A stretch of 64,000 nucleotides of DNA from NCBI RefSeq assembly GCF_032854445.1, contig NC_088306.1, forward strand, positions 27,933,764 through 27,997,763, read 5' to 3'. The stretch is from Liolophura sinensis. Lineage: Eukaryota; Mollusca; Polyplacophora; Chitonida; Chitonidae. The position numbers and the translations under genes were made by a program. Of the stretch, positions 15,179-64,000 are shown piece after piece. Each line of letters begins with the position of its first letter. Position 1 is the stretch's first letter. The notes beneath the pieces were generated by a model, which searched no databases, was not told where the DNA came from, and was given only the letters and a program-made list of their open reading frames with translations.

Positions 15179-15566
15179 TGGCCTTACTTGTCCCAGATCT
15201 ACGCCAGTAATCCGTTTGGGAATCCAGAATGGGACGATTTCCGACAGTCGAACACCAGCCTGGGAAGTCAGAAAGACTTTATGACGTCATTCCGTCAGGT
15301 GGGTGGCGACAGCGAACAGACCTACGGGGCTTACAGATTCTACATGCACGATGAATACAAAGGAGGAGGAGGAGAAGGAGGAGGAGTACAATATCGACAT
15401 CCGGGCTATTTCGTGGAGGAAGAAACCGCCAGCTACACTACACACGAAAAGGAATCCTCCCAGTCGTCACGGGTGAAAGTCTTCCTGTGGAGAAATATTC
15501 TTGGTGCTTTTGTCTTACTATCCATTCTTGTTGCCATAGCTACTGTCATCATTTTAGCCATTTTCT
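15179..15566 (+). CDS. mucin exon A: cytoplasmic tail and transmembrane helix
   Basis: The acceptor ttctttcccacag|tgg opens this exon in phase 0 and ct|gtaagt closes it in phase 1. The same frame is open upstream to an ATG at 15,047, so an unspliced start there is possible, but that extension (YVAIFCLNIAISVMK...) does not look coding. The 129 encoded residues contain about nine Tyr in the first 95, an NPF motif (ASNPFGNPEW, an EH-domain-type endocytic signal), and a Gly/Glu run from a purine tract at 15,361-15,390. Then comes the basic SRVKVFLWRN and a hydrophobic helix (exon residues about 107-130, ILGAFVLLSILVAIATVII...). Basic residues follow the helix in the next exon. The helix placed immediately before SEA1 implies a membrane-anchored, type II protein. 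No kinase or enzyme domain is present. Confidence 0.7.
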
Positions 15567-16124
15567 GTAAGTATTTCTTTTTAGTCCCATCAGGTACTAA
15601 AGTAAGAAAAATATTACTTATCATATTATTTACGAATGTTGAATTCCACTGTACCCAGTATTCACTAAACGCTTACTCGCTGGGACTGTTAGGCCCGTGG
15701 CCAATGGCGCCACGTTCAAATCCAGCTCTTGCTGTTCCGGCTCCGGTATTACGTCAGGGAGCTTGTTAAGTACCAATATCTAAGAACTGTGGCCTCCTCC
15801 ACTTACCCAGGTTTCCTCCGCTCATTTCTCTGACCGTCGTCATACAAGTGAGAAGTATTTGAGAACTGCGTTAAATACAAGTCAATAAGTCCATTTTGTA
15901 GCTTTTACATAACATCTCAACACACGCCATATGGTTTTACGAATGTAAAAACTCCCAGGCAATCAATATCCAGTAACCAATATAACATATCGTATAAGAC
16001 TACTACTAAAGGTTGTAAGCTCACTGTTTTCAATGCCCCACAAATCATTCTATATCACATTCGAATATAAATAATCCCATGATAACGAATGCACTTTGTC
16101 TACTAATCACTCTTTTCGTTTCAG
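15567..16124. other. intron with SINE-like insertion
   Basis: GT..AG intron between the membrane-helix exon and the 30-nt exon. It holds the SINE-like element at 15,682-15,893; otherwise AT-rich. Confidence 0.7.
15682..15893 (+). mobile_element. tRNA-derived SINE-like element in intron
   Basis: Has an A-box-like stretch (ggcccgtggccaatggc), a good B box (cgttcaaatccagctc), the body block gctgttccggctccggtat / acgtcagggagc shared with 19,196-19,412, then ggtttcctccgctca, gtcgtcatacaagtgag and a degraded tail. The open frame running from the upstream exon through this element is read-through into the intron, not coding. Confidence 0.7.
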
Positions 16125-16154
16125 TAACACGAAGGTCGTCAAATCTAGAAACAA
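16125..16154 (+). CDS. mucin exon B: 30-nt micro-exon (juxtamembrane linker)
   Basis: Acceptor ttttcgtttcag|taac and donor acaa|gtaagt bound a 30-base exon. Entering in phase 1 and leaving in phase 1, it adds ten codons. The junction codon reads Leu and the rest is TRRSSNLET, a basic/polar linker just outside the membrane helix. The fit to both neighbours' phases and the strong splice sites support it despite its small size. Skipping it would also keep the frame (30 = 10 codons), so it could be an alternatively used exon. Confidence 0.65.
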
Positions 16155-16596
16155 GTAAGTCATGACTGCGTGAAAACGCCACCTTATAGGACAACGTTTA
16201 TTTAGTGGTAAATTCAAAAAATGCTCAGTTAGACGAATTTGGCCCGTTAAACAAAGAGCAAACCAGTTTAAAAGTTGGAGAAAATTGGAACTGGAATTGA
16301 AATAGGCATAATGGACTTACACTATAGCTTTTAACGTCATAATTAGTACTCTGGCAAAGTTAAAACAATTTCCACTGTTATCTGTTAATACAACAAGGAA
16401 GTCGTCTGGTAAACGTTGGCCGAAGAGCGCTCGCTGGCTCACGTGGTCAATGTTGAGCGGCGTGACTCTCAGAACCTTGACCAAGGAGGTCGCGGATTCG
16501 AGTCCATATTTCACCGCTTCAGATGCCGTTTTAAGTCGATTTTAACCAAACGTATAGTCGTGTACAAGTGCTTGTTTGCTCTTTGTTCTTCCCCAG
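16155..16596. other. intron with SINE head
   Basis: GT..AG intron; contains the tRNA-like head at 16,405-16,520. The rest has no recognisable feature. Confidence 0.65.
16405..16520 (+). mobile_element. SINE head fragment in intron
   Basis: A-box-like cgctggctcacgtggtcaa followed at tRNA-like distance by a B box (cggattcgagtccat). The 3' body and tail are not visible, so this is a fragment or a different subfamily. It is unlikely to be a functional tRNA because no acceptor stem can be closed. Confidence 0.5.
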
Positions 16597-16706
16597 GATC
16601 ATTTTACACAAGCTTTCGAGTTCTCAACGAGAACTACATTCCATCGCATTACGCCAATACAAACAGCTCCGAGTTTACAGCCAAAGCTAGTCAGTTATGC
16701 GGAGCG
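16597..16706 (+). CDS. mucin exon C: SEA domain 1, part a
   Basis: Acceptor cttccccag|gatc, donor gcg|gtaagt; 110 nt, phase 1 to 0. It encodes the start of an SEA domain: FYTSFRVLNENYIPSHYANT then NSSEFTAKASQLCGA. The pattern (F-x-V-x-N-x-x-[YF]...S-x-E-[FY]...) matches the first strand and first helix of SEA domains and aligns with the 107-nt exons at 19,433 and 24,929, one codon longer. A cysteine near the end (LCGA) is conserved in all three copies. SEA domains are extracellular, often self-cleaving modules next to mucin regions. Confidence 0.82.
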
Positions 16707-16918
16707 GTAAGTATAACTTTCAGTTATCTTCATAAACATCGCACCGACGACTTTATTTCAGTACATGGTATTGTATGTTGACACCGAATGAACATAGGTA
16801 TGTGTGACTTTGTTGCCATGCACAAAAACATGGCAGTAAAGACTTTATCACATCACATGATATTGCATAGAGATATTGCAGAAGTGAATCTAAATGAATA
16901 TATATTCGACATTTCCAG

Positions 16919-16986
16919 ATAGATAACATGTACCAGTCATCCTCCGAGGCAGCCCTATATGGCGGATGCACGATAGTCCATATAAG
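16919..16986 (+). CDS. mucin exon D: SEA domain 1, part b
   Basis: Acceptor catttccag|atag, donor ataag|gtaagt; 68 nt, phase 0 to 2. It encodes IDNMYQSSSEAALYGGCTIV then HI and a split codon. It aligns residue for residue with MDAIYRNSSQAETYIGCIV (19,926) and MDQIYKKSSLKDDYIRCTV (25,191). The cysteine in GGCTIV is conserved in all three. This is the second helix and following strand of the SEA fold. The intron falls exactly before the cleavage motif. Confidence 0.82.
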
Positions 16987-17357: not shown

Positions 17358-19057
17358 CAATGGGAGCATTATTGTACATGCAGAAATAAAGACTGTGGGC
17401 AGGCCACAATGGACTAATGACTCAGCTCTGAACGCATTAACACGTTTGGAAGGTGTATTTTCCAATTTTGTAGAAAACAACGACTATCTGAAAGAATTCC
17501 AGTTAGACAGAAATTACACCATTGTGTTTGAAACGAATCAGACTCCGTTCACAACAACTACGGTGCCTGTTACTTTGAGGAGCACGACATCTCCGCCCGA
17601 GAAATCCACGACCACAACATCCAGGCAAAGTGTAACCACGAAACCGACAACCACAGATAAAGAAACCACTAATAGTGCTGGAACCACTTCTACAACCTCG
17701 AACACTACAACCACAGATAGGGAAACCCCCACTAGTTCAACTGCTCGAACCACTTCTACAACCCCCAACCCTACAATCACAGATAAAGAAACCCCTACTA
17801 GTTCAACTGCTCGAACCACTTCAACAACCCCCAAACCTACAACCACGGATAAGGAAACCACTACTAGTTCAACTGCTCGAACCACTTCTACAACCTCCAA
17901 CCCTACAACCACAGATAAGGAAACCACCACTAGTTCAACTGCTCGAACCGAGTCTACCACCCCAAACCCTATAATCACGGATAAGGAAACCACTACTAGT
18001 TCAACTGCTCGAACCACTTCTACAACGCCCAAACCTACAACCACGGATAAGGAAACCACTACTAGTTCAACTGCTCGAACCACTTCTACAACCCCCAACC
18101 CTACAACCACAGATAAGGAAACCACTACTAGTTCAACTGCTCAAACCACCTCTACAACTTCTAACCCTACAACCACAAATCGGGAAACCAGTGCTAGTTC
18201 AACTGCTCGAAGCACTTATACGACGGCGTCTGTTGCTACAACAGCACAAATTAAAACGACGGCCCAACTGACCAACGGAACGTCATCAACACAGCCAATA
18301 ACGTCCACATCACGCCCAGTGACGTCAACGTCACAGCCAGTGGCGTCATCCACCCAGCTGAAGACGATGACGTCTGTATCAAGATCATCGACTGTCAAAC
18401 CGGCTATTTCCACGCCTCAACTGGCTACATCGACGTTTTTCACACAAGACGCAAGCTCTTCCACGGCTAGGAGCCCGCCATCAACATTGTTTAGTCTTCT
18501 AACGAGTGACCATAGCACGACGGCTGTCCATCAAATTACTTCAACGCCGGCCCAAAGTACATCCACGCAAGCCCGTGTAACTACAACTTTTCCAAGTACG
18601 TTATCTCTTACAAGAACGACAGCGACTCAAATTACAACCAGACCTCCTCAAAGTACAACCACCACTGTTCAAAGTACTAGTCCTGCTAAAAGTACAACCA
18701 CCCCTGCTCAAAGTACAACCACCTCTGTCCAAAGCACAACCACGACTGTTCAGAGCACAACCCACCCTGCTCAAGGAACAACTACCACTGTTCAAGAGAT
18801 ATCGGTGCCTGATAAAAGAACACCAACAACAAGACCGAGTACAGCAGAGAGCATTACAAGCCTACCGTCAACCACAGTGAGCACGACGTCAGCAAGTGAC
18901 TTGATTACGACACAGCAAAGTGTTTCCACCACCCACTCGGCATCAACTGAGGCAAGGACGCCGTCAACCCCATCGACCTCCACATTAGTCGGAACGCAAG
19001 CCTTTACCAGCCCTGATAGTACCGTTGCCTACACAACAGAGCCAGTTGTGCAAACCG
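17358..19057 (+). CDS. mucin exon E: SEA domain 1 end plus mucin domain 1
   Basis: Acceptor cttttcag|caat, donor ccg|gtaaat; 1,700 nt, phase 2 to 1. The first codons complete SEA1: S|NGSIIVHAEIKT, where G-S-I-I-V fits the SEA self-cleavage motif (G|S followed by hydrophobics), and on to FQLDRNYTIVFET at the end of the domain. From about 17,540 the protein is Ser/Thr/Pro-rich with no cysteine seen. It holds about eight 22-residue repeats (66 bp; type TTTDKETTTSSTARTTSTTP, 17,655-18,205) and later a short run of 7-residue STTTPAQ-like units (18,655-18,797). It would be heavily O-glycosylated. Open frame past 19,057 is intron read-through. Confidence 0.85.
17655..18205 (+). repeat. 66-bp coding tandem repeat in mucin domain 1
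   Basis: About eight copies of a 66-base unit (22 residues), with the block gataaggaaaccac recurring every 66 bases. Units share CTAGTTCAACTGCTCGAACC. The long minus-strand frame here (VVSLSVVVGLGVVE-type) is a mirror of the repeat and not a gene. Confidence 0.88.
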
Positions 19058-19432: not shown

Positions 19433-19539
19433 GTCAGTTCTCTGGTGTCGTTCGAGTTGTCAACAGAACATTTACAGAAGATCTCCTCGACAAAAACAGC
19501 ACTGAATACGTTGTCATTGCAAATGACTTCTGTTCTACG
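19433..19539 (+). CDS. mucin exon F: SEA domain 2, part a
   Basis: Acceptor gtttatag|gtca, donor acg|gtaacc; 107 nt, phase 1 to 0. It encodes GQFSGVVRVVNRTFTEDLL then DKNSTEYVVIANDFCST. It aligns with DIFDGTIRAVNRTFTEGFQ in SEA3: both share VNRTFTE, which contains an N-R-T glycosylation sequon, and the FC near the end. This is strand 1 and helix 1 of an SEA domain. Confidence 0.85.
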
Positions 19540-19925: not shown

Positions 19926-19993
19926 ATGGATGCGATATATCGCAATTCCAGCCAGGCGGAAACTTACATCGGATGCATAGTCCTAGGCATCAG
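19926..19993 (+). CDS. mucin exon G: SEA domain 2, part b
   Basis: Acceptor gtttttgcag|atgg, donor atcag|gtaagt; 68 nt, phase 0 to 2. It encodes MDAIYRNSSQAETYIGCIVL then GI and a split Arg codon. Length, phase and the Tyr/Ser/Cys pattern are identical to the exons at 16,919 and 25,191. Confidence 0.86.
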
Positions 19994-20377: not shown

Positions 20378-23300
20378 GAACGGGAGCATTGTAATCGACT
20401 TCAAGCTTTTCTTTCGGGAAAATGTTACCGCTAAGAAAACTGTTCCAACAGAAACAGAGGTCAAAGAAGTTATCTTGGACAACGTGTACAAAGCGGAAGG
20501 CGTTCCCTTCATAGGCCAATTCCAGTTAGACGAAAACACAACTGTCGTCATAGAACTTACTGTAGAGACCACTATAATGTCAGACGTCACTACATTGGGC
20601 ATGACGTCACCGAGCTACTCCGAAACAACTGTTAACATTGATGGGGCCTCGTCAAGCCGTAGTGTGCCTTCCATCGCACCTTATTCGACGCTGCCTTCTA
20701 CAATACAACAATACCTCACAAGTACAGCTGGCACTACCACAAGTACAGATGCCACCTCCCTAAAAAGTAAAGAGGGCACTACTGTGGGTAGTTCAACAAC
20801 AACCACGGAGGCCACTACCATGGGAATTTTATCAACAAACACGGAGGGCACTACTGAGCGAATTTCATCAGCAAGCACGCAGGGCACTACCATCACAAGT
20901 TCATCAGCAAGTACGGAGGGCACTACCGTGGAAAGTGCAACAGCAAGCACGGAGAGCTCTACCATGCGAATTTCATCAACAAGCACTGACGGCATTACTG
21001 TGGAAAGTTTAGTAACAAGCACGGAGGGAACTACTATTGGAATTTCATCAACAAGCACGAAGGGCACTACTGGGCGAATTTCATCAACAAGCAAAGAGAG
21101 CTCTACCATCACAAGTTCATCAGCAAGTACGGAGGGCACTACCGTGGAAAGTTCATCAACAAGCACGGACGGCACTGCCATGAGAATTTTATCAACAAGC
21201 ACGGAAGGACTTACCATGGGAATTTCATCAACAACCACAGAGGGCACTACCGTGGAAAGTTCAACAGCAAGTAGGGAGGGCTCTACCATTGGAATTTCAT
21301 CAACAAGAACTAAGCGCATTTCTGTGGAAAGTTCAATAACAAGCACGGAGGGCACTACCGTTGGAATTTCATCAACGAGCACGGAGGGCATTACAGGGCG
21401 AATTTCATCAACAAGCAAAGAGAGCTCTACCATCACAAGTTCATCAGCAAATACGGAGAGCACTACCGTGGAAAGTTCAACAGCAAGCACAATGGGCACT
21501 ACCATGGGAATTTCATCAACAAGGACGGATGGCACTACCGTGGAAAGTTCGACAGCAAGCACGGAGGGCACTAACCTGCAAAGTTCATCAACAAGCATGA
21601 AGAGCGCTACCATTGGAGTTTCATCAACAAGCACGGAGGGTACTACTATTGAAAGTTCAACAATAAGGTTGGAGGGCACTACTGTGGAAAGTTCATCAGT
21701 AAACACGGAGAGCACTACCATGGGAATTTCATCAGCGAGCAGACAGGGCACTGCCGTGGACATATTATCAAGCACGGAGGGGACTACCGTGGAAAGTTCA
21801 TCAACAAGCACAGTTGGCACTACCATGCAAAGTTACTCGGCAAGTACAGATGACAATTCCACAGGAAGCCTCTCTACAAACACAGACGTCACTACAATAG
21901 AAAGGCTATCTACAAGAAAAGTTAGCATTACCACAAGAAGCCTCCCTACAAGATCAGATGGCACTACCTTGGAAGGATCATCGTCAATAGCTGTTGGTAC
22001 AACTACAGGAATCCTCTCAACAAGCACAGACGGCACTACGAGGGAAAAGCCATTTACAAGAGCAACTGGCACTTCCACAGGAAGCCCGTCTTCAAGCACA
22101 GGCGGAACTACATTGGAGCGGTCATCGACAATATCTTTTGGTACAACCACAGGAAGCCCCTCTTCAAGCTCAGACAAAACTACATTGGAGGGGTCATCGA
22201 CAATATCTGCTGGTACAACCACAGGAAGCCCCTCTTCAAGCTCAGACAAAACTACATTGGAGGGGTCATCGACAATATCTGCTGGTACAACCACAGGAAG
22301 CCCCTCTTCAACCTCAGACAAAACTACATTGGAGGGGTCATCGACAATATCTGTCGGTACAACCACAGGAAGCCCCTCTTCAAGCTCAGACAAAACTACA
22401 TTGGAGGGGTCATCGACAATATCTGTCGGTACAACCACAGGAAGCCCCTCTTCAAGCTCAGACAAAACTACATTGGAGGGGTCATCGACAATATCTGCTG
22501 GTACAACCACAGGAAGCCCCTCTTCAAGCTCAGACAAAACTACATTGGAGGGGTCATCGACAATATCTGTTGGTACAACCACAGGAAGCCCCTCTTCAAG
22601 CTCAGACAAAACTACATTGGAGGGGTCATCGACAATATCTGCTGGTACAACCACAGGAAGCCCCTATTCAAGCTCAGACAAAACTACATTGGAGGGGTCA
22701 TCGACAATATCTGCTGTTGGCTCTACCACAGAAAGTCTCTCTACAAAAAAAGATGGCACTGTCATGGAAGGGTCATCAACGTTAACCGTTGGCACTACAA
22801 CAGACAGTTACTCTACAAGCACAGATGGCACTACCATGGAAAGTTCCTCGACAGGCAATTACGCTCTTAGCACTGAAGTCACTTCTCCAATTATAGTAGA
22901 GACTACCCCAGAGAGACTGATGACCACTGCACAAGATGTCACCACAAAGGCTTCCCCACAAGTACAACGGCACCCACTATTTTCTCCTCAGTGGAAAATG
23001 CAAGTAATGGTACAAGTGCTAGTACACCTTTTATGGTCACTCCCAGAGTCGACATTACCATCTCGACTACAGTTGCTAGCACTTCGTCTAGTGCAGAGAA
23101 TACCCCGTTGAGTACACAAGGTAGTTCGACTTCTTTTGCAAAAGTGAGCCCAGAGATCACCACCGCCAAGTCAACAAGCGATGGTAGTACATTACATAGC
23201 TCAGTGGCCACAACTGACAGTACCGTTTCAGACGCAATTGGCACTGCATCGGGCAGAACACAAAGAACTGCAGATAATTCAACGATACAAAGTACCAAGC

Positions 23301-24599
23301 CAACTACAGAGGAGACTACAACCGTCAGCGCTGGTTCAAGTACAGATGGCATCACGGTTTCAAATACCTACGATCTTTCGATGGAGAGTACAACAAGTGC
23401 GTCTTCAATTAGAGAAGATGGCAGCACGGCACAGTATATGTACACTCCTACGTCAGAAACCGCTTCAAGTGTAACTGATACTTTGCTAAACACTAGTGCT
23501 GCCAACGCAGTTACAAGTACAAAGGGAATTACATTTAACATGGACACTAGTGACACAGCTCCGACACTGGGAAGCTATTCGACAAGCACTGTTCCAACTT
23601 CACAATCAACGACGATGATCGGCAAAACGGAAACGAAAACCTCTACAGTTGCTAGTTTCAGTTCTACCAACGGCACCTTTGAATCGACGACCTCAACCAC
23701 GTATGGTTTTATTACCACGGGAACCGACGAAGTGGCAACTACACCGACTGAAAGCGTAACTTTCAGTAGTGCCACAAGCAAAATGCCAACTCGTACTGAA
23801 ACAGGAAAAACTGCCACAGGTGAAGTTGTATCATCTAGCAGTGGCACCAGCCAAGCGGCAACCATAACAGCAGAAAGGAAAACCAGTGTAACAATTTCGT
23901 CCACGAAAGAGCTGGCATCCAGCACAGGCACCGTCAAAAGTATGACAACATCTTCTCAATTTATTCCAACCGGAATGAGGACCACAACAGTTCACTCCCC
24001 TGTAGGGAGTTCCACGCTTATTGGAGGCTTCTACACGACAGGGACTGATACCACCCTCAGTGGCTCTTTCCTGACCGACAGTGGGACGACATTTGTCCAA
24101 ACCACCGAACTGACCAGCACTGTTCCATCGTCAAGTTCTGTGACTGGTACACTCTCAACAAAGAGAAGCCCGGCCGAAGAAAGCAGTAGCACCAATAGTG
24201 CTTCGAGCACGTTATCTATCGATCAGGAGTCAAGCACAGTATATACCAAAACTGATTATTACACCTCGTCACCTAAAACTATTGACACGTATACTTTTTC
24301 AACTGAAGAAGCTTCGCCAGTTTCATCGTCAGACCTGAGTAGCACCATTTCGGGCTCCGTCGATGACGTTTCGACCCCATTCAGTGCAAGAACTGATACC
24401 ACTTTCACCAGTCAGGGAAGGGATACAACATCCAGTGTCTTCCTCAGCACAGTTTCTACGTCTCCAACAGTCAGCATAGATTTGACCGGTGATACTACAA
24501 CCGACACAGTTTCTTCATCCACTTTCGTTATGGAAAAGTCATCTGATGCTACGGCGGGATACACACACTTGCCTGTAACGTCACCCTCGCAAGACACAG
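20378..24599 (+). CDS. mucin exon H: SEA domain 2 end plus mucin domain 2 (one-base frame break)
   Basis: Acceptor tgtctttcag|gaac, donor acacag|gtatgt; 4,222 nt. It starts in the SEA frame with R|NGSIVIDFKLFFRE (G-S-I-V-I cleavage-type motif) and reaches FQLDENTTVVIEL. After this comes a Ser/Thr-rich mucin region: 12-residue units of the STEGTTVESSST type (about 20,750-21,850), nine or so 24-residue units TTLEGSSTISAGTTTGSPSS.. (22,080-22,720), then non-periodic Ser/Thr sequence. The entry frame runs to about 22,957. From there only the -1 frame stays Ser/Thr-rich (STTAPTIFSSVENASNGTSA) and it leaves in the phase the next SEA exon needs. So one base is missing (most simply in the CCCC run at 22,954-22,957), or the allele or assembly is broken here. 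No plausible intron explains it. Confidence 0.8.
20750..21850 (+). repeat. 36-bp coding tandem repeat in mucin domain 2
   Basis: Roughly 30 imperfect 36-base units encoding 12 residues, consensus-like STEGTTVESSST / STEGTTMGISST. Units are much more diverged than in mucin domains 3 and 4. Minus-strand frame (VVPSVLVDE-type) is a shadow. Confidence 0.8.
22080..22720 (+). repeat. 72-bp coding tandem repeat in mucin domain 2
   Basis: About nine nearly identical 72-base units (24 residues, two 12-residue halves), for example with caatatct recurring at 22,201 and 22,273. Between-unit differences are a handful of bases (Ala/Val at one position, Ser/Thr at another), so this block expanded or was homogenised recently. 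Confidence 0.9.
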
Positions 24600-24928: not shown

Positions 24929-25035
24929 ACATCTTCGACGGCACTATCCGAGCGGTAAACAGAACGTTTACGGAAGGCTTTCAAAATCAAAGCAGCGTGG
25001 AATTTAAACAGGTGGCATCTGAATTTTGTGAAAAG
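24929..25035 (+). CDS. mucin exon I: SEA domain 3, part a
   Basis: Acceptor tatttattacag|acat, donor aaaag|gtaaaa; 107 nt, phase 1 to 0. It encodes (G)DIFDGTIRAVNRTFTEGFQ then NQSSVEFKQVASEFCEK. Same length, phases, VNRTFTE block and FC position as the SEA2 exon at 19,433. Confidence 0.86.
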
Positions 25036-25190
25036 GTAAAAGGATGCAGCACGCAAAATATCTACATTTCATGTGCATCAGTCTTATCATATATCACCTA
25101 AATTCCCGCTCTTCAGAACGTAGATGATCAAACTTTCAAATGTCATAACTCTTCATATTCCTTACATGCTTGCTATTTCTCTCCTTCCAG

Positions 25191-25258
25191 ATGGATCAAA
25201 TTTACAAGAAATCCTCACTGAAAGATGATTATATACGATGTACAGTCATATCTATAAG
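25191..25258 (+). CDS. mucin exon J: SEA domain 3, part b
   Basis: Acceptor tctccttccag|atgg, donor ataag|gtaaca; 68 nt, phase 0 to 2. It encodes MDQIYKKSSLKDDYIRCTV then ISI and a split Arg codon. Third copy of the 68-nt SEA exon, with the conserved cysteine in IRCTV. Confidence 0.86.
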
Positions 25259-25475: not shown

Positions 25476-28400
25476 GAATGGAAGTCTAATTATCGACTTT
25501 GAACTCGAGTTCCGTCAGCCACAAACAACAATAGGACCGGTAGCTAGAGAGCAGCAGGTCAAAACTGTCATTTTGAATAACATAAAAAAAGTAGAGACTA
25601 CAAACTTTCTGGGATCGTTCCAGTTGGATCTTTCCGTTCAACCGATCAGAATTATCCTCAAAACGACCACTACCACCACTGGGCAAACGGAGTATATGAC
25701 ACCCGAAATCACCTCCAGCCCATTGTCCACAAAAGTGTTTCAAACCAAAATACCTGTTCAGTCCACAAAACTGATGGACACCACCTACCTTGGTCGGTCC
25801 ACATCAGTTATACATACCACCACACCGGGAGAATCTGCTACAGTGCTGGAAACAACAACACCTGGCCAGTCTACAACAGTAATGGATAACACCACACCTG
25901 GCCAGTCTACAACAGTAATGGACACTATCAAACATGGTGAGTCTACAACAGTGATTAAAACAAGCACGCCTGTCCAGTCAACAACAAGAATGCTTACCAA
26001 TACACCTGGCCAGTCTTCAACAATGATGGATTCCAGCACGCCAGAACAATCTACTGCATTTATTGATATTACCACACCTGGCCTGTCTACAACAGTGATG
26101 TATCCAACTCCACCTGGTCAGTCTACCACAGTTATGGATATCACCACACCTGGGCAGTCTACAACAGAAATGGATACCACCAAATATGGCAAGTCTACAA
26201 CAGTGATGAAAACAAGCACACCTGTCCAGTCGACAACAAGAATGGATACCAATACAACTGGCCAGCCTACAACAGTGATGGATATCACCACACCTGGACA
26301 ATCTACAGCATTTGCTGATACTACCACACCTAGCCAGTCTACAACAGTGAAGGACACCACCACACCTGACCAGTCTACAACAATAATGGATGCCACCACA
26401 CCTGGCCAGTCTACAACAGTAATGGACACCACCACACCTAATCAGTCTACAATATTAATGGACACCACCACACCTGGTCAGTCTACAACAGTAATAGACA
26501 CCACCACACCTGGTCAGTCTACAAAAATGATGGACACCACCACACCTGGACAGTCTACAACAGTGATGCAGACCACCACACCTGGCCAGTCTACAAAAGT
26601 GATGGAGATAACCACAATTGGCCGGTTAACAACAGTGATGGATACCACCACAACTGGCCAGTCTACAACAGTGATGGATTCAAGCACACCTGGTCAGTTT
26701 ACAACTCTAGTGGATAATGCCACACCTGGCCAGTCTACAACAGTGATGGATACCACCACTCCTGGCCAGTCTACAAGAGTAATGGATACCACCACACCTG
26801 GCCAGTCTACAACAGTGATGGAGACCTCCACACCTGGCCAGTCTACAACAGTGATGGATACCACCACACCTGGCCAGTCTACAACAGTAATGGATACCAC
26901 CACACCTGGCCAGTCTACTACAGTGATGGATACCACCACCCATGGCCAGTCCACAAGAGTGATGGAGACCTCTACAATTGGCCATTCTCCAACAGTGATG
27001 GATACCAACACACCTGGCCAGTCTACAAGAGTAATGGAGAGCACCACACCTGGCCAGCCTATAACAGTGATGGATACCACCACCCATGGCCAGTCTACAA
27101 CGGTGATGGATACCACCACTCCAGACCAGTCTACAACAGTGATGGATACCACCACCCATGGCCAGTCTACAACAGTGATGGATACCACCACACCTGGCCA
27201 GTCTACAACAGTGATGGATACCACCACCCATGGCCAGTCTACAACAGTGATGGATACCACCACACCCGACCAGTCTCCAATAGTGATGGATACCACCACA
27301 CCTGGCCAGTCTACAACAGTGATGGATACCACCAAACCTGGCCAGTCTACAGGAGTGATGGAGACCACCACACCTGGCCAGTTTACAACAGTGATGGATA
27401 CCACTACACCTTTTCAGTCTACAACAGTGATGGAGAACACCACACCTGGCCAGTCTACAACAGTGATGGATACCACCACACCTGGCCAGTCTACAACAGT
27501 GATGGATTCCACCACACCTGGCCAGTCTACAAGAGTGATGGATACCACCACACTTGGCCAGTCTACAAGAGTAATGGAGACCACCACACCTGGCCAGTCT
27601 ACAACAGTGATGGATACCACCACACGTGGCCAGTCTACAACAGTGATGGATACCACCACACCTGGCAAGTCTGCAACAGTGATGGATACCATCACACCTG
27701 GACAGTCTACAAGAGTAATGGATACCACCACACCTGGCCAGTCTACAACAGTCATGGACACCACCACACCTGGCCAGTCTACAACAGTGATGGATACCAC
27801 CACACCTGGCCAGTCTACAACAGTGATGGATACCACCACCCATGGCCAGTCTACAACAGTGATGGATACCAGCACACCCGACCAGTCTACAATAGTGATG
27901 GATACCACCGCACCTGGCCAGTCTACAACAGTGATGGATACCACCACACCTGGCCAGTCTACAACAGTAATGGATACCACCACACCTGCCCAGTCTAAAA
28001 CAGTGATGGATACCATAACACCTGGCCAGTCTACAAGAGTAATGGAAAGAGCCACACCTGGCCAGTCTACAAGAGTGATGGATACCACCACCCATGGCCA
28101 GTCTACAACAGTGATGGATTCCACCACACCTGGCCAGTCTACAAGGGTAATGGAGACCTCCACACCTAACCAATCTACAACAGTAATGGATACCACCACA
28201 CCTGGCCAGTCCACAACAGTGATGGATTCCACCACACCTGGCCAGTCTACAACAGTGATGGATTCCACCACACCTGGCCAGTCTACAAGGGTAATAGAGA
28301 CCTCCACACCTGGCAAATCTACAACAGTGATGGACACCACCACACCTGGGCAGTATACAACACTGATGGATACCACCACACCTGGCCAATCTACAACAGT

Positions 28401-46400: not shown

Positions 46401-46819
46401 CCAGTCTACAACAGTGATGGATACCTCCACCCATGGCCAGTCTACAAGAGTAATGGAGACCTCCACACCTGGCCAGTCTACAACCGTGATGGATGCCACC
46501 ACACCTGGCCAGTCTACATCAGTGATGGATACCTCCACCCATGGCCAGTCTACAACAGTAATGGAGACCTCCACACCTGGCCAGTCTACAACAGTGATAG
46601 ATACAACCATACCTGGCCAGTCTACAACAGTGATAGATACAATCACATCTGGACAGTCTACAACAGTGATGGATACCACCACACCTGGCCAATCTACTAT
46701 TGCGATGGATTCTTCAACGCGTGGACAGTCTACACCTTTATCGGGCACAACTTTTACTTCGTTGTCTTATACAGTGGATATGTCTACTACTTCTCAGTCG
46801 TTGGAAACATCAACTGGAG
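25476..46819 (+). CDS. mucin exon K: SEA domain 3 end plus giant mucin domain 3
   Basis: Acceptor cttcatttgcag|gaat, donor ggag|gttagt; 21,344 nt, phase 2 to 1, open throughout (about 7,115 codons). It begins R|NGSLIIDFELEFRQ (G-S-L-I-I, SEA cleavage-type), passes VILNNIKKVE and FLGSFQLD, and by about 25,750 enters a tandem array of 12-residue units, consensus VMDTTTPGQSTT. There are about 580 copies, ending near 46,740 with a short unique tail (TPLSGTTFTSLSYTVDMS). About half the residues are Ser/Thr. Each unit also has one Met, one Asp, one Gln and one Pro (His where CCT became CAT), and I see no Cys. The exon is as large as the giant exon of human MUC16. That no frame is lost over about 580 units argues for translation. 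Confidence 0.88.
25756..46740 (+). repeat. 36-bp coding array 1 (about 580 units)
   Basis: Head-to-tail 36-base units. Typical codons are acc acc aca cct ggc cag (TTTPGQ) and tct aca aca gtg atg gat (STTVMD). Exceptions keep the frame: an extra 18-base half unit at 37,411-37,428 and a 33-base unit near 30,489-30,520. Variant units recur as higher-order blocks. A diagnostic unit reading SNRL (tctaataggtta) occurs ten times, with its taat at 31,161, 32,817, 34,545, 35,481, 36,741, 39,207, 40,863, 42,123, 43,347 and 44,427. The long minus-strand frames (VVSITVVDWPG and HHCCRLARCGG types) are shadows. Confidence 0.95.
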
Positions 46820-52900: not shown

Positions 52901-55900
52901 TGACCAGTCTAACACAGTGATCGATACCACCACAGCTGGTCAGTCAACCACACTGTTGGATACCACAACAGCTGACCAGTCTTCCACAACACCTCAACAG
53001 TCTACCACAGTGATGGATACTACAACAGCTGGTCAGTCTACCACAGTCATACATACCACCACAGCTGCTCAGTCTACCACAGTCTTAGACACAACAGCAA
53101 CTGACCAGTCTACCACAGTAATGCACAGCACAACACCTGAACAGTCTACCACAGTGATGGATACCACAACAGCTGGTCAGTCCACCATAGTCATAGATGG
53201 CACGACAGCTGACCAGTCTGCCACAGTAATGGATACCACAACTGCTGACCAGTCTACCACAGTCATACGTACCACAACATTTGGCCAGTCTCCAACACTG
53301 ATAGATACCACAACAGCTGACCAGTCTACCACAGTGATCGATACCACCACAGCTGGTCAGTCAACCACACTGTTGGATACCACAACAGCTGACCAGTCTA
53401 ACACAGTAATGGATACCACAACACCTGACAAGTCTACCACAGTCATATATACCATAACAGTTGGCCAGTCTACCACAGTGATAGACACTACAAAAGCTGA
53501 CAAGTCTACAACAGTGATGGATACCACAACGGCTGACCAGTCTACCACAGTGATGGATACCACAACAACTGCCCATTCTACCACAGTATTCGATACCACC
53601 ACAGCTGGTCAGTCTACCACACTGCTGGATAGCACAATAGCCGACAAGTCCACCACAGTGATGGATACCACAACACCTGCCCAGTCTACCACAGTAATCG
53701 ATACCACCACAGCTGGTCAGTCAACCACACTGATGGTTACCACAACAGCTGACCAGTCTTCCACAGTGATGGATACCACAACACCTGACCAGTCTACCAC
53801 AGTGATATATACCTCAACACCTGACCAGTCTACCACAGTTATCGATACCACCACAGCTGGTCAGTCAACCACACAGTTGGATACCACAACACCTCACCAG
53901 TCTACCACAGTAATGCATACCACAACACCTCACCAGTCCACCACAGTGATGGATACTACAACAACTGCTCAGTCCACCACAGTCAAAGATACCAGCACAG
54001 CTGGTCAGTCTACCAAAGTCTTAGATACCACAGCAGCTGACCAGTCTACCACAGTGATGCATAGTGTAACACCTAAACAGTCTACCACAGAGATGGATAC
54101 CACAACAGCTGGTCAGTCTACCACAGTGATGGATACCACAACAGCTGGTCAGTCTACCACAGTCATGAATGCCACGACAGCTGACCAGACTACCACAGTG
54201 ATGTATATCGCAACACCTGACCAGTCTACCACAGTGATCGATACCAACACAGCTGGTCAGTCAACCACACTGTTGGATACCACAACACCTGAACAGTCTA
54301 CCACAGTGATGGATACCATAACACCTTACCAGTCTACCACAGTGATCGATACCAACACAGCTGGTCAGTCAACCACACTGTTGGATACCACAACACCTGA
54401 ACAGTCTACCACAGTGATGGATACCACAACACCTTACCAGTCTACCACAGTGATCGATACCACCACAGCTGGTCAGTCTGCCACACTGTTGGATACCACA
54501 ACAGCTGACCAGTCTAAGACAGTGATGGATACCACCACAGCTGACCAGTCTACCACAGTGATAGATACAACAACACCTGCCAAGATTACCACAATCATGG
54601 ATGCCACGACAGCTGACCAGTCTACCACAGTGATGTATACCTCAACACCTGACCAGTCTACCACAGTGATGTATACCTCAACACCTGACCAGTCTACCAC
54701 AGTGATCGATACCACCACAGCTGGTCAGTCAACCACACAGTTGGATACCACAACACCTCACCAGTCTACCACAGTGATGGATACCACAACACCTCATGAG
54801 TCTACCACAGTGATGGATACTACAACAGCTGGTCAGTCTACCACAGTGATGGATACTACAAGAGCTGCTCAGTCTACCACAGTCATAGATACCACCACAG
54901 CTGATCAGTCAACCACACTGTTGGATACCAAAACACCTTACCAGTCTACCACAGTAATGGATACCACAACACCTCACCAGTCAACCACACTGTTGGATAC
55001 CACAACAGCTGACCAGTCTACCACAGTGATGGATACCACAAAACCTGACCAATCTACAACAGTGATGTATACCTCAACACCTGACCAGTCTACCACAGTG
55101 ATCGATACCACCACAGCTGGTCAGTCAACCACACTGTTGAATACCACAACAGCTGACCAGTCTACCACAGTCATAGATACCACAACACGTGGCCAATCTT
55201 CCACAGTAATACATACCACATCAGCTGACCAGTCTACAACAGTGATGGATACCACAACACCTGACAAGTCTACCACAGTGATAGATACCACAACAGTTGG
55301 CCAGTCTACCACAGTGATCGATACCAACACAGCTGGTCAGTCAACCACACTGTTGGATACCACAATACCTGAACAGTCTACCACAGTGATGGATACCACA
55401 ACACCTTACCAGTCTACCACAGTGATCGATACCACCACAGCTGGTGAGTCTGCCACACTGTTGGATACCACAACAGCTGACCAGTCTAAGACAGTGATGG
55501 ATACCACCACAGCTGACCAGTCTACCACAGTAATAGATACAACAACACCTGCCAAGATTACCACAATCATGGATGCCACGACAGCTGACCAGTCTACCAC
55601 AGTGATGTATACCTCAACACCTGACCAGTCTACCACAGTGATGTATACCTCAACACCTGACCAGTCTACCACAGTGATCGATACCACCACAGCTGGTCAG
55701 TCAACCACACAGTTGGATACCACAACACCTCACCAGTCTACCACAGTGATGGATACCACAACACCTCATGAGTCTACCACAGTGATGGATACTACAACAG
55801 CTGGTCAGTCTACCACAGTGATGGATACTACAAGAACTGCTCAGTCTACCACAGTCATAGATACCACCACAGCTGATCAGTCAACCACAGTGTTGGATAC

Positions 55901-58900
55901 CACAACACCTTACCAGTCTACCACAGAAATGGATACCACAACACCTCACCAGTCAACCACACTGTTGGATACCACTACAGCTGACCAGTCTACCACAGTG
56001 ATGGATACCACAAAACCTGACCAGTCTACCACAGTGATGTATACCTCAACACCTGACCAGTCCACCACAGTGATCGATACCAACACAGCTGATCAGTCAA
56101 CCACACTGTTGAATACCACAACAGCTGACCAGTCTACCACAGTCATAGATACCACAACAGGTGGCCAATCTACCACAGTGATAGATACCACATCAGCTGA
56201 CCAGTCTAACACAGTGATGGATACCACAACAGCTGACCAGTCTACCACAGTGATAGATACCACAACAGTTGGCCAGTCTACCACAGTGATAGATACCACA
56301 ACAGCTGGCCAGTCCACCACAGTGAAGGATACCACAACAGCTGACCAGTCTACCACAGTGATGGATACCACAACACCTGTCCAGTCTACCAAATTGATGG
56401 ATACAACAACAGCTGACCAGTCTACCACAGTGATTGATACCACATTACCTGACCAGTCTACCACAGTGATGGATACTACAACAGTTGGTCAGTCTACCAC
56501 ACTCTTGGATACTATAACAGCTGACCAGTCTACCACAGTCATAGATACAACAACAGTTGGCCAGTCTACCACAGTGATAGATACCACAACAGCTGGCCAG
56601 TCTACCACAGTGAAGAATACCACAACAGCTGACCAGTCTACCACAGTGATGGATACCACAACACCTGCCCAGTCTACCACAGTGATGGATACCACAACAG
56701 CTGACCAGTCTACCACAGTGATCGATACCACAATACCTGTCCAGTCTACCACAGTGATGGATACCACCACAGCTGGTCAGTCAACCACACTGTTGGATAC
56801 CACAACAGCTGATCAATCTATCACAGTGATGGATACCACAATACCTGACCAGTCTACAAAGGTCATAGATAGCAAAACACCTGACCAGTCTACTACAGTG
56901 ATGTATACCTCAACACCTGACCAGTCTACCACAGCAATCGATACCACCACAGCTGGTCAGTCAACCACACTGTTGGATAATACAACAGCTGACCAGTCAA
57001 CCACATTGAAGGATACCACAACACCGCACCAGTCTACCACAGTGATGGATACTACAAAAGCTGCTCAGTCTACAACAGTCATAGATACCACAACAGCTGG
57101 TCAGTCAACCACACTGTTGGATACCACAACAGCTGACCAGTCTACCACAGTGATGGTTACCACAAGTCTTTACCAGTCTACCACAGTCATAGATACCATA
57201 ACAGGTGGCCAATCTACCACAGTGATAGATACCACATCAGCTGACCAGTCTACCACAGTGATGGATACCACAACAGCTGACCAGTCTACCACAGTGATGG
57301 AGACCACAACACCTTTCCAGTCTACCACAGTGATGGATACTACAACAGTTGGTCAGTCTACCACACTGTTGGATACCACAACAGCTGACCAGTCAACCAC
57401 AGTGATGGATACCACAACACCTGACAAGTCTACCACAGTCATAGATACCACAACAGTTGGCCAGTCTACCACAGTGTTAGATACCACAACAGCTGGCCAG
57501 TCCACCACAGTGAAGGATACCACAACAGCTGACCAGTCTACCACAGTGACGGATACCACAACACCTGTCCGGTCTACCAAATTGATGGATACAACAACAG
57601 CTGACCAGTCTACTACAGTGACCGATACCACAATACCTGACCAGTCTACCACAGTGATGGATACCACCACAGCTGGTCAGTCAACCACACTGTTGGATAC
57701 CACAACAGCTGACCAGTCTACCACAGTGATTAATACCACAATACCTGAACAGTCTACTAAAGTCATAGATAACACAACACCTGACCAGTCTACCACAGTA
57801 ATGGATACCACAACACCTCACCAGTCAACCACAGTTACCATTACCACCACAGCTGGTCAGTCAACCACACTGTTGGATACCACAACACCTCACCAGTCTA
57901 CCACAATGATGGATACCACAATACCTGACCAGTCTACCAAAGTCATAGATAGCACAACACCTGACCAGTCTAGCACAGTGATGGATACCACAACACCTGA
58001 CCAGTCTACCACAGTGATGTATACCTCAACACCTGACCAGTCTACCACAGTGATCGATACTACCACAGCTGGTCAGTCAACCACACTGTTGGATACCACA
58101 ACAGCTGACCAGTCTACCACAGTCATAGATACCATAACAGGTGGCCAATCTACCACAGTGATAGATACCACATCAGCTGACCAGTCTACAACAGTGACCG
58201 ATACCACAACAGCTGACCAGTCTACCACAGTGATGGAGACCACAACACCTGCCCAGTCTACCACAGTGATATATACTACAACAATTGGTCAGTCTACCAC
58301 CCTGTTGGATACCACAACAGCTGACCAGTCTACCACAGTGATGGATACCACAACACCTGACCAGTCTACCACAGTCATAGATACCACAACAGTTGGCCAG
58401 TCTACCACAGTGATAGATACCACAACAGCTGGCCAGTCTACCACAGTGAAGGATACCACAACAGCTGACCAGTCTACCACAGTAATGGATACCACAATAC
58501 CTGACCAGTCTACTAAAGTCATAGATAGCACAACACCTGACCAGTCTACTACAGTGATGTATACGTCAACACCTGACCAGTCTACCACAGTGAGCGATAT
58601 CACCACAGCTGGTCAGTCAACCACACTGTTGGATACCACAACAGCTGACCAGTCTACCACAGTGAAGGATACCACAACACCTCACAAGTCTACCACAGCT
58701 ATGGATACTACAAGAGCTGCTCAGTCTACCACAGTCATAGATAACACCACAGCTGATCAGTCAACCACACTGTTGGATACCACAACACCTTACCAGTCTA
58801 CCACAGTAATGGATACCACAACACCTCACCAGTCAACCACACTGTTGGATACCACAACAGCTGACCAGTCTACCACAGTGATGGATACCACAATACCTGA

Positions 58901-61900
58901 CCAGTCTCCCAAAGTCATAGATAGCACAACACCTGACCAGTCTACCACAGTGATGGAGACCACAACACCTGACCAGTCTACCACAGTGATCGATAGCACA
59001 ACACCTGACCAGTCTACCACAGTGATGAATACCTTAACACCCTACGAGTCTACCACAGTGATGGATACCACAACACCTGACCAGTCTACCACAGTCATAG
59101 ATACCACATCTTCCACAAAGATAGATACCACAACAGCCGACCACTCTACCACAGAGATGAATACCACAACAGTTGGCCAGTACACCACAGTGATGGAGAC
59201 CACAACACCTGCCCAGTCTACCACAGTGATGTATACCACAACAGCTGACCAGTCTACCACAGTCATAGATACCACAACAGTTGGCCAGTCTACCACAGTG
59301 ATAGATACCACAACAGCTGGCCAGTCTACCACAGTGAAGGATACCACAACAGCTGACCAGTCTACCACAGTGATGGATACCACAATACCTGACCAGTCTA
59401 CCACAGTGATGGATACCACCACAGCTGGTCAGTCAACCACACTGTTGGATACCACAACAGCTGACAAGTCTACCACAGTGATGGATACCACAATAACTGA
59501 CCAGTCTACTAAAGTCATAGATAGCACAACACCTGACCAGTCTACCACAGTAATGGATACCACAATACCTCACCAGTCTACCACAGTGACCGATACCACA
59601 ACAGCTGACCAGTCTACCACAGTGATGGATACCACAACACCTGACCAGTCTACCACAGTGATGGAGACCACAACACCTGCCCAGTTTACCACAGTGATGG
59701 ATACCACAACATTGGGTCAGTCTACCACACTGTTGGATACCACAACATCTGCCCAGTTTACCACAGTGATGGATACTACAACATTGGGTCAGTCTACCAC
59801 ACTGTTGGATACCACAACAGCCGACCAGTCTACTACAGTGATGGATACCACAACAGTTGGCCACTCTCCCACAGTGATAGATACCACAACAGCTGACCAG
59901 TCTACCACAGTGATGGATACCACAATACCTGACCAGTCTACTAAAGTCATAGATAGCACAACACCTGACCAGTCTACCACAGTAATGGATACCACAACAC
60001 CTGACCAATCTACCACAGTAATGGATACCACAACACCTGAACAGTCTACCACAGTGATGTATACCTCAACACCTGACCAGTCTACCACAGTGATCGATAC
60101 CACCACAGCTGGTCAGTCAACCACACTGTTGGATACCACAACAGCTGACCAATCTACCACAGTGATGGATACCACAACAATTGGCCAGTCTACCACAGTG
60201 TTAGATACCACAACTGCTGACCAGTCTACCACAGTGATGGATACCACAACAGCTGACCAGTCTACCACAGTAATGGATACCGCAATACCTGACCAGTCTA
60301 CCACAGTGATGGATACCAAAACACCTGCTCGGTCTACCACAGTGACCGATACCACCACAGCTGGTCAGTCAACCACACTGTTGGATATCACAACAGCTGA
60401 CCAGTCTACCACAGTGATGGATACCACAACACCTGACCAGTCTACCACAGTTATGGATACCACAACACCTGACCAGTCTACCACAGTTATGGATACCACA
60501 ACACCTGACCAGTCTACCACAGTGATGGATACCACAACACCTGACCAGTCTACCACAGTGATGGATACGACAACACCTCACCAGTCTACCACAGTGATGG
60601 ATACCACAACACCTGACCAGTCTACCACAGTGATGGATACCACAACACCTCACCAGTCTACCACAGTGATGGATACCACAACACCTGACCAGTCTACCAC
60701 AGTTATGGATACCACAACACCTGACCAGTCTACCACACTGATGGATACCACAACAGCTGACCAGTCTACCACAGTGATGGATACCACAACACCTGACCAG
60801 TCTACCACAGTGATGGATACCACAACACCTGACCAGTCTACCACAGTGATGGATACCACAACACCTGACCAGTCTACCACAGTGATGGATACCACAACAC
60901 CTGACCAGTCTACCACAGTGATGGATACCACAACACCTGACCAGTCTACCACAGTGATGGATACCACAACACCTGACCAGTCTACCACAGTGATGGATAC
61001 CACAACACCTGACCAGTCTACCACAGTGATGGAGACCACAACAGTTGACCAGTCTACCACAGTGATGGATACCACAACACCTGACCAGTCTACCACAGTG
61101 ATGGATACCACAACACCTGACCAGTCTACCACAGAGATGGATACCACAACACCTGACCAGTCTACCACAGTGATGGATACCACAACACCTGACCAGTCTA
61201 CCACAGTGATCGATACCACCACAGCTGGTCAGTTAACCACACTGTTGGATACCACAACAGCTGACCAATCTACCACAGTGATGGATACCACAACAGTTGG
61301 CCAGTCTACCACAGTGTTAGATACCACAACTGCTGACCAGTCTACCACAGTGATGGATACCACAACAGCTGACCAGTCTACCACAGTAATGGATACCACA
61401 ATACCTGACCAGTCTACCACAGTGATGGATACCAAAACACCTGCTTGGTCTACCACAGTGACAGATACCACCACAGCTGGTCAGTCAACCACATTGTTGG
61501 ATATCACAACAGCTGACCAGTCTACCACAGTGATGGATACCACAACACCTGACCAGTCTACCACAGTTATGGATACCACAACACCTGACCAGTCTACCAC
61601 AGTTATGGATACCACAACACCTGACCAGTCTACCACAGTGATGGATACCAAAACACCTGCTCGGTCTACCACAGTGACCGATACCACCACAGCTGGTCAG
61701 TCAACCACACTGTTGGATATCACAACAGCTGACCAGTCTACCACAGTGATGGATACCACAACACCTGACCAGTCTACCACAGTTATGGATACCACAACAG
61801 CTGACCAGTCTACCACAGTTATGGATACCACAACACCTGACCAGTCTACCACAGTGATGGATACCACAACACCTGACCAGTCTACCACAGTGATGGATAC

Positions 61901-64000
61901 CACAACACCTCACCAGTCTACCACAGTGATGGATACCACAACACCTGACCAGTCTACCACAGTGATGGATACCACAACACCTGACCAGTTTACCACAGTG
62001 ATGGATACCACAACACCTGACCAGTCTACCACAGTTATGGATACCACAACACCTGACCAGTCTACCACACTGATGGATACCACAACACCTGACCAGTCTA
62101 CCACAGTGATGGATACCACAACACCTGACCAGTCTACCACAGTGATGGATACCACAACACCTGACCAGTCTACCACAGTGATGGATACCACAACACCTGA
62201 CCAGTCTACCACAGTGATGGATACCACAACACCTTACCAGTCTACCACAGAGATGGATACCACAACACCTGACCAGTCTACCACAGTGATGGATATCACA
62301 ACAGCTGACCAGTCTACCACAGTGATGGATACCACAACACCTCACCAGTCTACCACAGTGATGGATACCACAACACCTGACCAGTCTACCACAGTGATGG
62401 ATACCACAACACCTGACCAGTCTACCACAGTAATGGATACCACAACACCTGAACAGTCTACCACAGTGATGTATACCTCAACACCTGACCAGTCTACCAC
62501 AGTGATTGATACCACCACAGCTGGTCAGTCAACCACACTGTTGGATACCACAACAGCTGACCAATCTACCACAGTGATGGATACCACAACAGTTGGCCAG
62601 TCTACCACAGTGTTAGATACCACAACTGCTGACCAGTCTACCACAGTGATGGAAATCACAACAGCTGACCAGTCTACCACAGTAATGGATACCACAATAC
62701 CTGACCAGTCTACCACAGTGATGGATACCAAAACACCTGCTCGGTCTACCACAGTGACCGATACCACCACAGCTGGTCAGTCAACCACACTGTTGGATAT
62801 CACAACAGCTGACCAGTCTACCACAGTGATGGATACCACAACACCTGACCAGTCTACCACAGTTATGGATACCACAACACCTGACCAGTCTACCACAGTT
62901 ATGGATACCACAACACCTGACCAGTCTACCACAGTAATGGATACCACAACACCTGACCAGTCTACCACAGTGATGGATACCACAACACCTGACCAGTCTA
63001 CAACAGTGATGGATACCACAACACCTGACCAGTCTACCACAGTGATGGATACCACAAAACCTGACCAGTCTACCACAGTGATGGATACCACAACACCTGA
63101 CCAGTCTACCACAGTGATGGATACCACAACACCTGACCAGTCTACCACAGTGATGGATACCACAACACCTGACCAGTCTACCACAGTGATGGATACCACA
63201 ACACCTGACCAGTCTACCACAGTGATGGATACCACAACAGTTGACCAGTCTACCACAGTGATGGATACCACAACAGCTGACCAGTTTACCACAGTGATGG
63301 ATACCACAACACCTGACCAGTCTACCACAGTGATGGATACCACAACACCTGACCAGTCTACCACAGTGATGGATACCACAACACCTGACCAGTCTACCAC
63401 AGTGATGGATACCACAACACCTGACCAGTCTACCACAGTTATGGATACCACAACACCTGACCAGTCTACCACACTGATGTATGCCACAACACCTGACCAG
63501 TCTACCACAGTAATGGATACCACAACACCTGAACAGTCTACCACAGTGATGTATACCTCAACACCTGACCAGTCTACCACAGTGATCGATACCACCACAG
63601 CTGGTCAGTCAACCACACTGTTGGATACCACAACAGCTGACCAATCTACCACAGTGATGGATACCACAACAGTTGGCCAGTCTACCACAGTGTTAGATAC
63701 CACAACTGCTGACCAGTCTACCACAGTGATGGAAATCACAACAGCTGACCAGTCTACCACAGTAATGGATACCACAATACCTGACCAGTCTACCACAGTG
63801 ATGGATACCAAAACACCTGCTCGGTCTACCACAGTGACCATACCACAACAACTGACCAGTCTACCACAGTGATAGATACCACAACACCTGACCAGTCTAC
63901 CACAGTGATGTATACCTCAACACCTGACCAGTCTACCACAGTGATCGATACCACCACAGCTGGTCAGTCAACCACACTGTTGGATACCACAACACCTGAC
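49933..64000 (+). CDS. mucin exon L: giant mucin domain 4 (partial, runs off the window)
   Basis: Acceptor caacaaaacag|gtac, phase 1 entry giving G-TDLNPTLPMDTT. It continues as Ser/Thr-rich sequence with no SEA domain at its start. The first block (49,985-50,390) has about eleven 12-residue units ADESSTVMSTTP. A mixed block follows to about 50,760, then an array of 12-residue units VMDTTTPDQSTT / VIDTTTAGQSTT to the window end. The frame is open for 4,655 codons until a one-base loss after 63,839 (copies elsewhere read gtgaccgatacc; here gtgaccatacc) causes a stop at about 63,870. The repeat resumes one frame over to position 64,000. No cysteine seen. The 3' end, and any C-terminal domain, lies beyond the window. 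Confidence 0.82.
49985..50390 (+). repeat. 36-bp coding repeat, ADESSTVMSTTP subtype
   Basis: About eleven units of a 36-base repeat typified by gccgatgagtcttcaactgt. Same 12-residue period as the following array but a different sequence (Ala-Asp-Glu in place of Thr-Pro-Asp). The block is confined to the 5' edge of the exon. Confidence 0.9.
50760..64000 (+). repeat. 36-bp coding array 2 (about 370 units, continues past the edge)
   Basis: Head-to-tail 36-base units with typical codons acc aca aca cct gac cag (TTTPDQ) and tct acc aca gtg atg gat (STTVMD). The 50.8-60.3 kb part mixes many variant units. 60.4-63.5 kb contains long runs of nearly identical VMDTTTPDQSTT. Higher-order duplications include a 972-bp block (caagatta at 54,581 and 55,553) and 1,080-bp blocks (acacctgctcgg at 61,653, 62,733 and 63,813). 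Minus-strand frames (VVSITVVDWSG, CCGIHHCGRLV types) are shadows. Confidence 0.95.

Follow-up and report, generated by a model that had tools for sequence, protein, structure and literature searches.

In the layout taught as standard for membrane mucins, which is type I, the SEA domain lies beside a C-terminal helix. MUC1, MUC3/12/17 and MUC16 join a SEA domain with a G-S cut site to very long Ser/Thr-rich repeats, and MUC16 in addition has many SEA domains and giant size (usual figures 14,500 to 22,000). Type II transmembrane serine proteases with SEA domains, such as matriptase, the TMPRSS11/HAT family and enteropeptidase, have a cytoplasmic tail, one N-terminal helix and a membrane-adjacent SEA domain, and the transmembrane isoform of agrin combines a type II anchor with SEA and mucin-like parts. 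In published descriptions, the SEA domain and helix of membrane mucins are C-terminal (PMC9080433) and the self-cleaving SEA motif is given as GSxxV, where x is V or I (PMC9478142). The SEA domain of matriptase is described as cutting itself at Gly149-Ser150, with the two halves remaining together and holding the ectodomain non-covalently (PMC5567652).

Here we describe an exon chain from the chiton Liolophura sinensis that carries these known modules at extreme size and in an order reversed relative to canonical membrane mucins. The chain lies in a window of 64,000 nucleotides (C12:27,933,764-27,997,763 in a genome of 609 Mb and 632 contigs) and continues past its end within the 224 kb region fetched around the gene; unless stated otherwise, positions are those of the window. 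The chiton exon chain for a SEA-mucin is real and the gene is unusual. It probably represents one gene that encodes a giant mucin of type II, anchored by its N-terminus, in which the SEA domains would act as couplings. As in the type II proteases, an N-terminal tail and helix precede the SEA domain, subject to a caveat concerning the helix-SEA1 splice that is discussed below, but huge mucin blocks are present where those proteins have the protease. The SEA domains with putative G-S cut sites and the very long Ser/Thr-rich repeats resemble those of MUC1, MUC3/12/17 and MUC16, whereas the helix and SEA domains come first rather than at the C-terminus. Agrin differs in carrying follistatin, EGF and laminin G domains, for which neither the mucin blocks nor the flanks were scanned with profiles here.

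Exon chain and SEA domains

Each of the three SEA domains is split over three exons: a first one of 107-110 nt, a middle one of 68 nt and a third that starts with NGS and continues as mucin sequence (Table 1). At the domain borders, the exons join in phase 1 with splice signals, allowing for a frame change near 22,951. The initial annotation, made from the window alone, proposed the order tail, helix, SEA1, mucin, SEA2, mucin, SEA3 and two giant mucin exons. The exon start at 15,179, the three spliced SEA domains and the open exons at 25,476-46,819 and from 49,933 onward agree with this proposal, but the frame is broken near 22,951 and near 63,835. Its exon sum of about 42.3 kb is matched by the 42,277 nt computed for the window, and its estimate of more than 14,000 residues, rivalling the largest mucins, is if anything understated. 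With the exons past the window, the sum is 73,009 nt or 24,336 codons, counting giant exon 3 as one exon despite its frame changes. The exons are predicted to be joined in a single transcript, and the exact size of the protein would depend on this model; a product of about 24,300 codons would be larger than MUC16 is usually given to be and would be among the largest mucins known.

With the Pfam SEA family (PF01390; cut-off 26.4 bits), the bit scores of the spliced SEA1, SEA2 and SEA3 domains are 40.5, 58.2 and 70.0, and single unspliced exon pieces stay below this cut-off. Their alignment contains 24 invariant columns, two of which are Cys. The GSxxV motif is matched strictly by SEA1 (GSIIV), and only loosely by SEA2 (GSIVI) and SEA3 (GSLII).

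When a profile of the three domains was compared with solved chains, the best match was 2e7v, a transmembrane protease (E 3.1e-5), followed by 1ivz (E 0.0046), which we take to be a MUC16 SEA domain, and then by TMPRSS11D (0.073), ADGRF1 (0.15), TMPRSS11A (0.39) and TMPRSS6 (0.54). Transmembrane proteases thus account for four of the six chains up to E 10. Because only 2e7v is clearly significant, kinship to the SEA domains of type II proteases, which would match the topology, is a lead. SEA2 alone gave one match among the solved chains, again 1ivz (E 0.74).

A tblastn search with the three SEA domains over the 224 kb region found no SEA domain downstream of SEA3, and a whole-genome search with SEA3 returned five matches, every one an exon of this gene. 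The whole-genome Pfam SEA search gave no match at E 0.001 and 12 up to E 10, none above the cut-off. Protein searches likewise found no relatives at E 1e-3 (1,205 candidates) or at E 1 (80 candidates), but their reach was limited to proteins of about 485-1,543 residues, and therefore they do not prove that relatives are absent.

A second multi-SEA mucin-like locus was observed at C2:7,034,763-7,050,181. It has Asn/Thr-rich repeats, two open frames (577 and 820 amino acids) that are rich in Thr, and four SEA matches at 7.03-7.05 Mb that are all under the Pfam cut-off.

Coding constraint in the mucin blocks

Over eight mucin blocks, Ser and Thr make up 10,559 of 23,538 residues (44.9%), and Pro ranges from 2 to 8% by block. 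The blocks are long Ser/Thr/Pro-rich tandem repeats of 12-residue units, as expected of a mucin. In giant exon 1 the frame is open over the whole length, although 601 and 91 stops occur in the two remaining forward frames.

That the mucin exons code for protein is also evident from the differences among their repeat units. Using synonymous rates within the units to derive expectations, we found 459 synonymous, 858 non-synonymous and no stop changes in the 580 units of giant exon 1, where 1,170 non-synonymous changes and 23 stops are expected. The 370 units of giant exon 2 have 277 synonymous, 678 non-synonymous and no stop changes (expected: 821 non-synonymous, 10 stops). For giant exon 3, the first block has 711 synonymous and 1,571 non-synonymous changes (1,926 expected) and the second 365 and 858 (989 expected), with no stops against 39 and 20 expected, respectively. 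A fifth, short block of 17 units has an expectation of zero stops. Across the four giant-exon blocks, residue change is only mildly constrained (0.73-0.87 of expectation) and openness is strictly maintained.

These counts are to be read with the way the units were chosen in mind. The units are non-independent, with exact duplicates making up 289 of the 580 in giant exon 1. They were placed in codon steps only, and their whole-codon spacing is therefore by construction and no evidence. The test for stops covered all of giant exon 1 and, in giant exon 2, everything before the frame change near 63,835. For giant exon 3, the blocks were chosen as open frames, leaving out 88,675-89,568, and their zero stops are partly by choice. 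Both long arrays of giant exon 1 have 0% indels according to Tandem Repeats Finder (TRF). With regard to gel-forming mucins, which are marked by von Willebrand D and cysteine-knot domains, Cys is absent from giant exons 1 and 2 and occurs four times in one part of giant exon 3 and twice in the other.

Membrane helix and topology

The first exon of the chain encodes the only strong helix, with a hydropathy (KD19) of 3.15. Values reach at most 1.06 in eight other blocks, 1.47 in the spliced SEA parts and 0.42 in three pieces inside 88.7-89.5 kb. The helix therefore sits N-terminal to every SEA and mucin domain, as the initial annotation had stated, and by hydropathy no second strong helix is present in the coding blocks up to the TGA at 99,835. 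No signal peptide was seen in the exons identified from 15,179 on, and a long tail precedes the helix. A tail of more than 100 residues ahead of such a long helix favours a signal anchor over a cleaved signal peptide. In a whole-genome search, the tail exon matched only itself.

Type II topology, which had been proposed on the basis of domain order, is suggested by the position of the helix and by the spliced frame of a neighbouring gene described below; the distribution of charges is a weak indicator for this gene and a clear one only for the neighbour. Exon structure, SEA identity, coding constraint and the single strong helix on the N-terminal side are direct observations.

The connection between the helix exon and SEA1 required revision. 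A helix exon ending at 15,566, as first annotated, leaves in phase 1, but its direct junction with 16,597 creates an in-frame stop (T/GA) and was rejected. The donor at 15,593 (CAG/gtacta) keeps the frame, giving ...LAIFCKYFFLVPSG-SFYTSFRV, with a weak score of -0.35, compared to 1.35 for the donor at 15,566 and 0.75 to 8.72 for ten SEA and mucin donors tested. Either this donor or the candidate micro-exon listed in Table 1 would preserve the frame. A third donor at 15,601 (AAA/gtaaga, score 3.69) is ruled out by a phase that is wrong for SEA1. It is a matter of speculation that the choice between the 15,566 and 15,593 donors might serve as an off-switch.

Neither end of the protein had been visible to the initial annotation. 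The C-terminal end lies beyond the window, probably at the TGA at 99,835. The start codon is still unseen and should sit in an exon upstream of 15,179, because the corresponding exon of the neighbouring gene lacks any Met.

A neighbouring gene with a similar exon pattern

On the same strand, between window positions -27,568 and -21,634 (C12:27,906,195-27,912,129), lies a shorter gene whose helix exon is 42.7 kb upstream of the one described above. This exon starts with WPHLTTLYNASPF, resembling WPYLSQIYASNPF in the giant gene (common pattern WP-L---Y---PF), and it also has phase 0 at its start and phase 1 at its end. The exons measure 364, 107 and 68 nt, followed by 883 nt to the end of the open frame, and join in phases 1, 0 and 2. 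When spliced, they form an open frame of 474 residues with a tail, a helix, a SEA-like domain and a Ser/Thr/Pro-rich stalk. Charges of +5 before the helix and -2 after it clearly support the type II topology by the charge rule. The helix exon contains no Met, and therefore the start codon of this gene is further upstream, which also backs the exon border at 15,179 in the giant gene.

A tblastn comparison of the two tail exons was not significant (E 0.63-0.94). A common origin of the two genes is suggested by exon lengths, phases, two Cys and the exon start. The short tail-helix-SEA-stalk gene looks like a starting form from which the giant gene might have been built.

Weighing of alternative gene models

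Several observations weigh against an intact single gene of type II. The splice from 15,566 to SEA1 yields a stop and its replacement donor is weak, as is the acceptor of giant exon 2 (score -2.9). A good donor (GG/gtgagt, 4.46) overlaps the TGA at 99,835, so that further exons are possible, and the start codon was not found. The charges of +2 before and +1 after the helix point in the right direction and barely favour the topology, and a high hydropathy value is no proof by itself, with 13 of 375 open frames of 100-300 amino acids reaching 3.0. In the neighbouring gene, the SEA-like domain has LVQDMVVN instead of the NGS motif, has no Pfam SEA match, and matches the profile of the three SEA domains weakly (probability 24.8, E 7.9e-4). 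In addition, the SEA2 mucin exon contains a one-base frame change near 22,951, where four C follow one another; giant exon 2 has a unit that is one base short close to its end, near 63,835; and several frame switches occur between 88,674 and 89,569 in giant exon 3. No unbroken frame joins all parts as assembled, and the change near 22,951, if real and fixed, would truncate the protein within mucin domain 2.

We read the frame changes as assembly faults or young alleles because the frames downstream of them are preserved, remaining open for 21 kb past 22,951 and for thousands of codons past the others. HiFi reads are usually accurate, and the changes might alternatively be real. The gene and topology would then be the same but the allele broken, with a protein ending early in mucin domain 2 or giant exon 2, and the giant arrays would represent either coding DNA that was lost recently or a single allele of a mucin that is polymorphic. 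The genome report for Liolophura japonica (PMC11068029) indeed gives HiFi reads as the basis of the assembly, but with coverage of just 14X, a mean read length of 8,347 bp and heterozygosity of 1.24%. Moreover, 23, 10, 39 and 20 stops would be expected by block where the frames are open. The late cluster of changes, at 88.7-89.6 kb, falls on the edge of the second of two copies of about 3.5 kb in giant exon 3 (78,600-82,060 and 89,190-92,660) that are 99-100% identical in 300-base windows, as would be produced by a misassembly or a young duplication. The length of giant exon 3 is therefore the least certain. In contrast, the longest exact self-matches are 578 nt in giant exon 1 and 303 nt in giant exon 2 (words present two to five times), which is short relative to the reads and makes these arrays more trustworthy. 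With this evidence, a broken allele appears unlikely.

A canonical type I SEA mucin is also a doubtful explanation, and we give it little credence. It would require that the helix exon belong to another transcript, that a signal peptide be located elsewhere and that a C-terminal helix be encoded by further exons. Such a protein would conform to the described build of membrane mucins (PMC9080433), and it would accommodate both the donor that overlaps the TGA at 99,835 and the stop formed by the 15,566 splice. However, the open frame ahead of SEA1 has no in-frame Met, no SEA domain follows SEA3 in the fetched flanks, the neighbouring gene joins its helix to a SEA-like domain in frame, and an AATAAA at 100,214 is positioned past the last repeats. 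A SEA domain followed by a C-terminal helix and tail is not found in the coding blocks up to the TGA. The blocks are mucin up to this point, and a C-terminal trypsin-like domain is likewise not seen: the motifs GDS[GA]GP and [ST]AAHC do not occur in the six frames of the 224 kb, a search that would miss a motif split by an intron.

Division of the locus into two or more genes is very improbable. In this model, the N-terminal SEA gene would finish within mucin sequence, and the later giant exons would form mucin genes of their own. The introns of 3.1 and 5.1 kb between the giant exons and the weak acceptor of giant exon 2 would be consistent with such a division, but giant exons 1 and 2 share the same 3' end (CTGGAG/gttagt) and giant exons 2 and 3 share the same 5' start (AAAACAG/GTACA), as expected if one exon had been duplicated within one gene. 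Furthermore, neither giant exon 2 nor giant exon 3 has a Met in its open frame ahead of the mucin sequence.

Proposed architecture and its implications

In the single type II gene that we favour, the tyrosine-rich tail would remain cytoplasmic, and the protein would be held in the membrane by a single signal-anchor helix that is not cleaved. Outside the cell, the predicted order is SEA1, mucin, SEA2, mucin and SEA3, followed by three giant Thr/Ser-rich mucin blocks beyond which no domain was recognised. The SEA domains probably cut themselves between Gly and Ser (G/S) in the secretory pathway, and the halves would be held together non-covalently. The protein is most likely a tethered brush, with SEA1 beside the membrane. 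Under shear, this brush could be torn off stepwise, parting at SEA3, SEA2 or SEA1 and leaving the membrane undamaged. Self-cleavage and shedding are predictions.

It is somewhat more likely than not that the protein is a reversed membrane mucin, with an anchor like that of type II proteases, a brush of about 24,000 residues, a free outer end without domains and three serial SEA couplings for stepwise shedding. If this is true, tethered mucins of giant size would have originated repeatedly, built from one end or the other, and selection would keep the SEA coupling rather than the topology. The gene would then represent a second independent route to a cell-surface brush several micrometres long, at 0.2-0.25 nm per residue. 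Wave-swept rock is the habitat of chitons, which crawl on mucus, and a foot or gill brush that can be shed under shear is a natural and testable idea.

Among the papers listed by our literature searches, none dealt with an N-anchored SEA mucin, as judged by titles and the starts of abstracts. In a phrase search covering part of the matching papers, 'type II mucin' was the sole phrase met and 'type II transmembrane mucin' was not. The word mucin does not occur in the main text of the eLife chiton paper (PMC12005716) or of the L. japonica genome paper (PMC11068029). The latter gives a mean coding length of 447 amino acids for its genome annotation; automatic gene models may have split such giant genes.

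Feature coordinates and additional observations

Table 1. Exons of the predicted chiton SEA-mucin gene, in window positions
Feature	Position	Strand	Remarks
Cytoplasmic tail and single membrane helix exon (FVLLSILVAIATVIILAIF)	15179..15593	+	Phase 0 in, phase 1 out
Candidate alternative micro-exon, 30 nt	16125..16154	+	Would let donor 15,566 stay in frame; sole candidate meeting thresholds
SEA1 first exon, 110 nt	16597..16706	+	
SEA1 middle exon, 68 nt	16919..16986	+	
SEA1 last part and mucin domain 1	17358..19057	+	NGSIIV, fits GSxxV self-cleavage motif
SEA2 first exon, 107 nt	19433..19539	+	
SEA2 middle exon, 68 nt	19926..19993	+	
SEA2 last part and mucin domain 2	20378..24599	+	NGSIVI; one-base frame change near 22,951
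SEA3 first exon, 107 nt	24929..25035	+	
SEA3 middle exon, 68 nt	25191..25258	+	
SEA3 last part and giant mucin exon 1	25476..46819	+	NGSLII; 7,114 codons, 580 12-residue units (QSTTVMDTTTPG), 0 stops
Giant mucin exon 2 (QSTTVMDTTTPD units)	49933..64000, on to 64,601 past the window	+	Frame shifted by one base near 63,835; weak acceptor (-2.9)
Giant mucin exon 3	69,704-99,834 (beyond the window)	+	TGA at 99,835

Scans of the window with Rfam models and for transfer RNAs (tRNAs) gave no matches. By eye, stretches resembling tRNA-derived short interspersed nuclear elements (SINEs), with a B-box-like GTTCAAATCC or GATTCGAGTCC, are present in introns at about 15,690-15,850, 16,330-16,530 and 19,210-19,340. 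Outside the gene, the window contains two tandem arrays of a 36-nt family at 10,464-10,956 and 411-698, one of which is open as DYDGNVDYGGNA repeats in a frame of 185 codons.

Mitochondrial sequences were found on contigs C99 and C632. Seven of the eight COX1 matches are carried by C99 at a spacing of about 15.5 kb, indicating concatenated mitochondrial copies that are likely an assembly product. The genes, named from their translations, form two blocks, with ND1-ND6-CYTB-ND4L-ND4-ND5 on one strand and ATP6, COX2, COX1, ND2, ND3 and COX3 on the other, an order known from chitons.

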